Below, one piece after another: positions 56,131 through 57,921 of a stretch of DNA of 64,000 nucleotides. The notes under the pieces were generated by a model. It searched no databases. It was not told the origin of the DNA and worked only from the letters and a program-made list of their open reading frames with translations. Positions within the stretch are counted from its first letter, which is position 1, and each line of letters opens with the position of its first letter. Source of the DNA: Brachypterus glaber. Its lineage: Eukaryota; Arthropoda; Insecta; Coleoptera; Kateretidae. A program made the translations under genes and the position numbers. The stretch spans positions 99,238,893 to 99,302,892 of the forward strand of contig OY294044.1 in NCBI GenBank assembly GCA_958510825.1. Reading direction: 5' to 3'.

Positions 56131-57921
56131 TTTTTTTTCTTCATTTAAGTTATCATTATCATTAAGATTTAAAGGGTATACATTTAAATCTTTATTATTT
56201 TTTAAATTGGGATTAAAAATATAAATTTGTATTTTTATTGGTGTATTATTAAATATTATTTTTAACATACTGTATACTATATTCCATTTTAATTTATCAA
56301 GTCCACAACCAATCTGTGGCATTGAAATTCTATAATCTTTATTTTGTAAACAAAGTTGTTTTAAGTTTAATAGTGCTTTTAATAAATCCTTGTAAAATGG
56401 TTTATTATAATAGTTTTGTTTTGTAATTAGGTAATATATGTATTTGTTTTGTAATTTTATATATGCAACTTCTCCTACGTGCATATTTTGTTTTTTAAGA
56501 TTTTCTATAGAATTAAATCTTTGTTTGAATTCTAGGGCAATTCCTGCATTCATGTTAAGGTCACTTGATATGCAATGAGCTAATGAGTAATTATTAGTTT
56601 CCGTAAATATGTTTTTATGAATAATTTCTATATTATTGTTTTGCGATATTTTATTTCTAAGTAAATCTTTATATAGTTCATTGTTTATTTTTACTGTATT
56701 ATTTATATTGTTTATTTTAATTCTCGATAGTGCGTCTGCATTAGTATTTGTTTCTCCTTTTTTATATACGAGGGTATAGTCGAATTCTTCTAATTTTAAG
56801 CGCCATCTAATTAGTTTAGAATTGGGTTCTTTTAAATTAAATAACCATATTAATGGACGATAATCGGTATAAATTGTAAATTTGCGACCGTAAAGATAAG
56901 GACGAAAGTGTTTACATGCCCAAACTACTGCTAATAATTCTTTTTCATAAGTACTATATTTTTGTTCTGTTTCGTTTAAAGTTCGTGATGCGTAACTAAT
57001 TGGTTTATCTGAGCCTACTGTTCCTTGTGAAAGAACAGCGCCTAAGGCTATATTTGATGCGTCAGTAGTTAAAATAAATGATTTTGAAAAATCTGGATAC
57101 TGTAAAATTGGGGCGTTCATCAAAAGATTTTGACAAACTAAAAAGGCGTTTTGAAATTCTGCATTATGTATTATTTTTTTATTCTTTTTAAGACATTGAG
57201 TTAAAGGTTTTGTTATATAAGCAAAATCTTTTATAAATTTTCGATAGTATCCAACTAATCCTAAAAAACTTTTTATTTCCGTTACTGTTTTTGGAATAGG
57301 GAATTTTTTAATTACATTTAACTTATCTGGGTTAGGTTTAACTCCATCAGGTGTGACAATGTGTCCCAAAAATTTAACTTCTTTTCTTAAAAACTCTGAT
57401 TTATCTAATTGTACTTTAAATTGTGCATGTATTAATCTATTAAATACCTTTTTTAAGTTTTCAATATGTTCTTGTAGACTACTACTAAAAATTACGATAT
57501 CATCGAGATATACTAAACATATTTCATTATAAAGACCGCGTAAAATGTTATCCATTACTCTTTGGAACGTACTCGGTGCGTTTTTGAGCCCAAATGGCAT
57601 TCTTTTGAATTTATAGTGTCCATGTTCTGTTGAAAAAGCTGTTTTTGATGAGTCAGAAGGTTTCATTTTGATTTGATGAAAACCGTTGGCTAAATCTAAA
57701 GTTGTAAAATATTGACTTTTCCCGCGTTTATCTAAAATATCTGTTATATTTGGCAAAGGGTATTTATCTCCGACAGTTTTTTCATTTAATTTACGATAAT
57801 CGATAACAATTCTCCATTTTCGTTTTCCTGAGGCATCCATTTTTTTTGGAACTACCCATATAGGACTTAAAAAAGCTGAAACTGAGGGTTGTATAATATC
57901 TTGTTCTAACATTTTTTCCAT
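56095..57921 (-). CDS. Pol: reverse transcriptase, RNase H and C-terminal macro domain
   Basis: 608 codons from the first Met; the frame is open upstream to the TAA at 58225. RT: 'DYRKLNEKT' (41-49), 'TLDLANGFHQI' (74-84), 'RMPFGLKNAPSTFQ' (107-120) and catalytic YLDD (138-141). RNase H of the Ty3 type: D287 in TTDAS, E327 in YEKELLAVVWA, D353 and D396 (NADALSR). After a 30-residue linker, residues 431-572 form a complete macro domain of the OARD1/TARG1 type: 'SLAHCISSDLNMNAGIA' (446-462), 'YYLITK' with K501, and 'MPQIGCGLD' with D542. K501 and D542 are 41 residues apart, the spacing I recall for the catalytic Lys and Asp of human OARD1. The frame ends in a short basic/acidic tail where an A-run shifts it away from integrase. 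No such domain is usual in Ty3/Gypsy Pol. Confidence 0.93.
   Translation of the reverse strand: MEKMLEQDIIQPSVSAFLSPIWVVPKKMDASGKRKWRIVIDYRKLNEKTVGDKYPLPNITDILDKRGKSQYFTTLDLANGFHQIKMKPSDSSKTAFSTEHGHYKFKRMPFGLKNAPSTFQRVMDNILRGLYNEICLVYLDDIVIFSSSLQEHIENLKKVFNRLIHAQFKVQLDKSEFLRKEVKFLGHIVTPDGVKPNPDKLNVIKKFPIPKTVTEIKSFLGLVGYYRKFIKDFAYITKPLTQCLKKNKKIIHNAEFQNAFLVCQNLLMNAPILQYPDFSKSFILTTDASNIALGAVLSQGTVGSDKPISYASRTLNETEQKYSTYEKELLAVVWACKHFRPYLYGRKFTIYTDYRPLIWLFNLKEPNSKLIRWRLKLEEFDYTLVYKKGETNTNADALSRIKINNINNTVKINNELYKDLLRNKISQNNNIEIIHKNIFTETNNYSLAHCISSDLNMNAGIALEFKQRFNSIENLKKQNMHVGEVAYIKLQNKYIYYLITKQNYYNKPFYKDLLKALLNLKQLCLQNKDYRISMPQIGCGLDKLKWNIVYSMLKIIFNNTPIKIQIYIFNPNLKNNKDLNVYPLNLNDNDNLNEEKKMTLYSTIYNTN
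56206..56631 (-). other. Macro (ADP-ribose hydrolase-like) domain inside Pol
   Basis: Sub-feature of the preceding frame. The order of motifs (AHCISSD near the start, LITK, SMPQIGCGLDKLKW, then an IQIYIF strand) covers a whole OARD1-like fold of about 140 residues. OARD1/TARG1 enzymes remove ADP-ribose from acidic side chains and deacylate O-acyl-ADP-ribose. Both residues used in that reaction appear kept, so the domain is plausibly active. It sits at the RNase H-integrase junction, the position where some retroviruses carry a dUTPase. The family assignment rests on motif recognition, without a search. Confidence 0.88.

Follow-up and report, generated by a model that had tools for sequence, protein, structure and literature searches.

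An errantivirus in the genome of Brachypterus glaber (assembly GCA_958510825.1, OY294044.1:99,238,893-99,302,892; this whole stretch of 64,000 nucleotides is called the window) carries on its minus strand a Pol frame in which a macro domain of the TARG1/OARD1 type follows reverse transcriptase (RT) and RNase H without interruption. The domain is a predicted ADP-ribose hydrolase, and we give about even weight to the reading that this errantivirus uses it to strip ADP-ribose deposited by PARP-1 from the integration complex or from DNA ends. An initial annotation of the DNA had described a stop-free run from RT and RNase H into the macro domain, and this frame was recovered with 709 codons and the following parts.

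56095-58224, minus strand: open frame with RT, RNase H and macro domain, 709 codons from stop to stop (list of open reading frames (ORFs), Pfam)
57355-57849, minus strand: reverse transcriptase, residues 126-290 (PF00078, E 8.6e-41)
56782-57093, minus strand: RNase H, residues 378-481 (PF17917, E 2.4e-40)
56215-56637, minus strand: TARG1/OARD1-type macro core, ORF residues 530-670 (sequence and structure comparison)
56419-56421, minus strand: codon of Lys602, equivalent of TARG1 Lys84 and putative nucleophile (gap-free structural alignment)
56296-56298, minus strand: codon of Asp643, equivalent of TARG1 Asp125 (gap-free structural alignment)

Comparison of human OARD1/TARG1 with the macro domain of the window gave a match with E 6.4e-35, and TARG1 was the closest protein in both sequence and fold when the predicted model of the domain was compared with solved structures, in agreement with the type first proposed. 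The Pfam Macro family matched weakly, with E 0.0017 for the whole ORF and 1.7e-4 for the piece alone (22 bits, which is the cut-off). Residues 30-170 of the predicted model align without gaps to residues 12-152 of the TARG1 chain and place Lys602 and Asp643 on positions 84 and 125. In the stop-to-stop numbering used here, these are the residues previously named K501 and D542 by counting from the ATG, 41 positions apart, and the span formerly given to the domain (56206-56631) was right within a few bases. The domain is not closer to MacroD-type than to ALC1-like proteins. In the 558-nucleotide macro piece the other five frames hold 9-25 stops, and none of 10000 single-base shuffles was free of stops.

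The surrounding element was recognised as an errantivirus by paired long terminal repeats (LTRs) with a short duplication, by the order of protease, RT, RNase H and integrase (in several frames) and by an F-type envelope. Its Pol is 55% identical to that of Lampyris noctiluca errantivirus 1 over 637 columns, macro domain included. The proposed in-frame fusion of RNase H, macro domain and integrase stands on the RNase H side; on the integrase side the frame of the window copy closes at 56095. The macro domain nevertheless lies between RNase H and integrase, whose pieces follow in other frames.

Searching the B. glaber genome (648 Mb) for the macro domain yielded 627 candidates, 150 of which were scored and listed. 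Besides the window copy, this list has seven more full-length copies (92-98% identity), a second group (72-81%) and many matches at 43-58%; in 139 of the 150 no stop falls within the macro domain. Thirty-eight places were read, namely eight returned with the search, including the window copy, and 30 picked for variety, which makes the sample non-random. All 38 adjoin pieces of RT, RNase H or integrase. The macro domain stands after RNase H and/or before integrase in 28 of them (window included) and after integrase in ten. Within the fetched stretches, no integrase piece was found at two of the 28 middle-type loci (L086 and L107, L-numbers denoting loci of this genome) and no RT or RNase H piece at two others (L088 and L108). 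At 14 of the 28, a single frame number applies to all of RT, RNase H, macro domain, H2C2 region and integrase core, and at 11 of these 14 the macro domain is enclosed in an open frame of 1484-1680 codons; the stop-to-stop frame is common to macro domain and RT-RNase H in 20 of the 38. The architecture RT-RNase H-macro-integrase, for which a search had been recommended, was found in many places of this genome as well as in database proteins. The near-identical LTRs and the many open copies are no more than indirect hints that the element might be infectious or mobile.

The catalytic residues are conserved. Lys and Asp are both kept in 37 of the 38 places, the recovered piece of L087 being without the Lys position. 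The pair is likewise present in 18 of 19 element sequences (window included), the exception being P0014, which lost both (P-numbers denote database proteins found by macro searches). In the alignment of the 18 elements that remain without P0014, 12 of the 141 core columns do not vary, those of Lys and Asp included. Ratios of nonsynonymous to synonymous divergence (dN/dS) were calculated by the Nei-Gojobori method. Between two families of the window lineage, represented by four non-independent pairs with synonymous divergence (dS) of 0.62-0.73, dN/dS was 0.167-0.193 for the macro domain and 0.073-0.075 for RT-RNase H. Nine other pairs gave macro values of 0.105-0.174 in five cases (dS 1.6-2.9, near saturation) and undefined values in four. 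These ratios indicate purifying selection on the macro domain.

The same type of domain occurs in the genome outside Pol. A search with P0022 returned 536 candidates with 150 places listed, and by manual count 67 of the 150 rank above the first known errantivirus Pol. Four loci, L119-L122, were read; three of their frames comprise 506, 516 and 507 codons and the fourth 351. The N-terminal part is Gag-like, the macro domain lies near the C-terminus, and Lys and Asp are kept in all four. At L123 and L124 direct repeats flank the ORF, with a length of 425 bp and 99.8% identity in one case and 316 bp and 99.7% in the other; both extend to a boundary of the sequence retrieved. Errantiviral queries for RT, RNase H and integrase found no match around these two loci. 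We read the Gag-like-macro ORF as belonging to a putative non-autonomous LTR element in which no Pol was detected. The Gag-like part of one locus matched PNMA with E 0.012, below the cut-off, and no similarity was found between the Gag-like part and the gag piece of the window. A host OARD1 gene was not recognised among the places listed by the P0022 search.

Relatives were also present in databases. The macro segment of the ORF of 709 codons, used as a query, retrieved P0001, with the macro domain C-terminal after integrase, P0003, with the macro domain between RNase H and integrase, and P0002, a protein of 495 residues that has no Pfam match besides macro up to E 0.1. The macro domain of P0003 in turn led to 13 proteins with Pol domains (P0003-P0015), with an integrase zinc domain listed in 12; among them P0010, the Pol of Lampyris noctiluca errantivirus 1, matched OARD1 with E 1e-19. 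A search with the macro alignment added P0016 (RNase H and macro), P0017 (macro and integrase zinc domain), P0019 (integrase C-terminal SH3 domain and macro, 53% identical to the window) and P0118, in which a macro piece precedes a gypsy-like integrase H2C2 domain. The macro pieces of P0120 and P0102 are 82-88% similar to that of P0118, and P0120 gave no integrase match; perhaps these three represent a separate uptake in another Ty3/gypsy lineage. Residues 182-300 of P0017, between the macro and integrase zinc domains, form a domain predicted with fair confidence to be folded, and the macro domain fills the list of its matches. Scans of viral contigs with P0010, the RT piece of the window and query A2 found no relative; a scan with query A3 gave 80 loci of macro matches, which were not used further. 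Matches to TARG1-like macrodomains also came from structure predictions for Kadipiro virus VP8, thrips-associated RNA viruses and a Cressdnaviricota protein. No errantivirus name appeared among the best 50 rows of either BFVD search, many of which are nameless, so that nothing is excluded by this result.

A macro tree was calculated from 123 sequences, of which P0111 and P0121 fell below the score cut and the remaining 121 were thinned at 80% identity to 83 rows, P0102 standing for P0118 and P0120. Later trees were built on chosen subsets of 62 rows, 26 rows (RT tree and RT/macro tests) and 43 rows (Gag-like tree). The 83-row tree, with bootstrap unsettled, contained a glow-worm-type clade (support 99/96) and joined P0001 with P0002/P0022 (99/94). 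A placement of the window macro domain as direct sister of the glow-worm-type clade was unsupported, the window pairing with P0019 (96/93) in this best tree. In the 62-row tree all 26 B. glaber Pol macro domains used form one clade (100/94), which includes eight integrase-macro elements as a clade of their own (99/95); P0019 is sister to the whole (97/88) and P0025 comes next (96/84). The Gag-like-macro group (100/100) joins P0001, P0002 and P0022 in the 43-row tree (96/85). P0002 and P0022 had first been assumed to be host OARD1; they are now unsafe as host references because the Gag-like fusions branch near both.

These topologies suggest more than one capture of the macro domain. The simplest reading would be one uptake for the B. 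glaber Pol clade with one move across integrase, and a separate uptake for the Gag-like element. The best RT tree speaks against a single move, in that L118 (36% of columns filled) does not group there with the remaining integrase-macro elements. This tree does not unite the elements of this genome either, although the RT data do not reject their one clade (p 0.283). The opposite test on the macro domains gave p 0.038 for a hypothesis picked after the tree was known, and between these two values an exchange of macro domains between RT lineages is undecided. A cellular TARG1-type gene was presumably taken up by the element lineage. The proposal of a captured host gene is nevertheless too simple, because the best trees separate the B. 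glaber Pol, Gag-like-macro and glow-worm-type clades; yet a single origin of all Pol macro domains is not rejected by the approximately unbiased (AU) test (p 0.117), and neither is one clade of the window, P0015 and the glow-worm-type elements (AU p 0.382).

What the domain may do for the element can be considered from work on TARG1 and PARP-1. TARG1 cleaves ADP-ribose off Asp/Glu residues and off the terminal phosphates of both DNA and RNA (PMC7050489, PMC8053099), its K84A variant is inactive (PMC10933786), PARP1 can modify in vitro, though very weakly, the 5'-phosphates that gapped DNA exposes (PMC8053099), and PARP-1 is the only nuclear PARP of Drosophila (PMC7712786). The errantiviral domain may thus hydrolyse Asp/Glu-linked or terminal-phosphate ADP-ribose. 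Integrase would leave gapped DNA, and this would activate host PARP-1, which may modify its 5'-phosphates; a hydrolase that arrives with the integrase complex as part of Pol or Gag would then remove the ADP-ribose marks, which could let joining, repair or later expression go ahead. The macro domain would be present in the particle together with RT or integrase, and the Gag-like arrangement is compatible with such delivery. More tentatively, at somewhat less than even confidence, we propose an arms race in which insect endogenous retroviruses and Gag-only LTR elements repeatedly took up TARG1 and carry it in particles, at three positions, to erase PARP-1 marks at integration.

Several points weigh against integration-linked removal of PARP-1 marks by the macro domain. 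The hydrolase activity is a prediction from sequence and model, its substrate and timing are likewise deduced, and three macro positions, one of them in a Gag-like protein, do not single out integration. The window copy is broken: one stop codon separates protease and RT, which are in the same frame, the integrase pieces past the macro domain lie in three frame segments (55702-55250, 55236-55162 and 55145-54309), and env is split over frames. Two integrase-side frame changes coincide with runs of nine (56130-56138) and eleven (55252-55262) A residues, and either assembly slips or real damage may explain them. Within the window family dN/dS was 0.08-0.51 in 14 of 15 pairs, with 3 to 7 synonymous changes per pair, and the macro domain evolves faster than RT-RNase H. 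P0014 has a short RT branch despite the loss of both catalytic residues; either activity can be lost or this copy is decaying, and activity is accordingly not indispensable for every copy. Finally, the genome survey rests on macro matches and covers the errantivirus Pols that carry this domain.

An alternative that we hold to be rather unlikely is that the macro domain erases ADP-ribosylation on chromatin or its regulators and allows the provirus to be expressed, independently of integration. Loss of PARP-1 in Drosophila raises most of the misregulated mobile elements, the gypsy superfamily included, but indirect causes were offered, namely loss of Lola and Mod(mdg4) (PMC7712786). A Gag-like fusion would supply the macro domain without integrase. 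A Pol-borne domain, made in small amounts and once expression has already begun, counts against this explanation. The domain might instead bind ADP-ribosylated proteins or DNA breaks and tether Pol or Gag to chromatin, steering integration or nuclear retention. Some macrodomains are readers (PMC7050489), the location beside integrase suits a tether and P0014 is without the catalytic pair; the retention of both Lys and Asp, described above, argues against a pure reader, which would not need both, and makes this role unlikely in our judgement. A countermeasure to antiviral PARPs of the cytoplasm, the role proposed for the macrodomains of alphaviruses and coronaviruses, agrees with the TARG1-like matches in predicted structures of arthropod-associated RNA viruses (Kadipiro virus VP8, thrips-associated viruses), and appears improbable here. 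That the captured fold is mere ballast, a spacer that separates RNase H from integrase and has no ADP-ribose chemistry, would accommodate its faster evolution relative to RT and the state of P0014, but is very improbable given dN/dS of 0.17-0.19 between families and a catalytic pair retained at three positions in several families. An assembly join or single chimaeric copy, at which the frame breaks and the assembly gap at 44584-44783 might hint, was rejected as next to impossible, because seven full-length copies of 92-98% in the same genome contain the segment, the element has LTRs and a 4-bp duplication, and the same layout recurs in other datasets.

Among known systems, human TARG1/OARD1/C6orf130 is an ALC1-like hydrolase, whereas its relative here is one domain of a retroelement Pol, adjacent to RNase H and integrase. 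The copy in the window has kept the IGCGLD loop, while most glow-worm-type elements read ICSGLD or similar. Lampyris noctiluca errantivirus 1 is likewise an errantivirus with the macro domain of its Pol at the same place, but that domain falls in another clade of the tree. In the published description of this virus (PMC7093385), RT/RNase H and integrase were the domains that HHpred assigned to its largest ORF, and the main text does not contain the word macro. The nearest precedent, as retroviruses with a macro domain, are the epsilon-like endogenous retroviruses of fish, which carry macro-domain ORFs (PMC4977317). Unlike the element described here, these are additional ORFs in ray-finned fish, outside Ty3/gypsy and, in the part of the source available, not stated to lie inside Pol. 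Their original description is reportedly that of Basta 2009. With the viral MacroD-type domains (nsP3 of alphaviruses and coronaviruses, rubella p150) the errantiviral domain shares a macro fold inside a viral replication polyprotein, and with accessory domains of LTR retrotransposons (chromodomain, DnaQ-like exonuclease, DNA methylases) the fusion of an extra domain to the polyprotein (PMC6338049). The terms macro (as a domain) and ADP were not found in the main text of the latter source, nor the word macro in that of a 2025 EMBO J study of insect endogenous retroviruses (PMC12992720). In the open-access literature, among the matches listed, no description of a macro domain in errantivirus Pol or Gag was found, in line with the novelty first claimed for Pol. 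A viral macrodomain of the TARG1 type, built into a retroelement Pol and a Gag-like protein, would therefore appear to be new. Errantiviruses serve as the model for insect endogenous retroviruses, and an enzymatic Pol domain of some of them seems to be unannotated, even in one published genome. The domain offers a direct connection, open to experimental test, between ADP-ribosylation and the integration of retroelements, and raises the question whether insect retroelements are held in check by PARPs and respond in kind. Nature has in addition supplied a range of such macrodomain fusions, next to RNase H, next to integrase and with a Gag-like protein.

The remaining features of the errantivirus are as follows.

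56130-56138, minus strand: run of nine A, frame change between macro domain and integrase side (sequence)
55250-55702, minus strand: integrase N-terminal extension in another frame (homologous to P0003 residues 682-831)
55162-55339, minus strand: integrase zinc-binding H2C2 region, divided between two frames (sequence comparison)
54516-55145, minus strand: integrase core region (rve E 4.8e-6 for the piece 54501-54992)
58225-58977, minus strand: aspartic protease frame (PF00077, E 4.6e-4)
59012-59854, minus strand: gag piece (weak Ty3_capsid match, E 0.0024, below cut-off)
53364-54146, minus strand: env piece (Baculo_F, E 3.5e-16)
52499-53464, minus strand: probable C-terminal part of env, in a different frame (assigned from its position; Pfam gave nothing above cut-off)
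60767-61107, minus strand: 5' LTR with AGTT...AACT ends (LTR pair 99.4% identical, about 342 bp)
52173-52514, minus strand: 3' LTR (comparison of the LTR pair)
52169-52172, no strand: left target-site duplication CACA (sequence flanking the LTR)
61108-61111, no strand: right target-site duplication CACA (sequence flanking the LTR)

Beside the 5' LTR, the sequence at 60743-60766 resembles a primer-binding site for a tRNA with the 3' end CGACTGCGCCA, presumably tRNA-Ser; tRNA and Rfam scans of the window gave no match. Elsewhere in the window, a BEL/Pao-like element occupies 39484-44802 with plus-strand ORFs at 39484-41655 and 41656-44802, by eye gag and RT/RNase H/integrase, and the above-mentioned assembly gap, a run of N, lies near its end. 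Two minus-strand ORFs (48882-49766 and 31713-32531) resemble by eye pieces of non-LTR reverse transcriptases, and tandem-repeat arrays are located outside the errantivirus at 50864-51316 (12-bp spacing) and 61188-61510.
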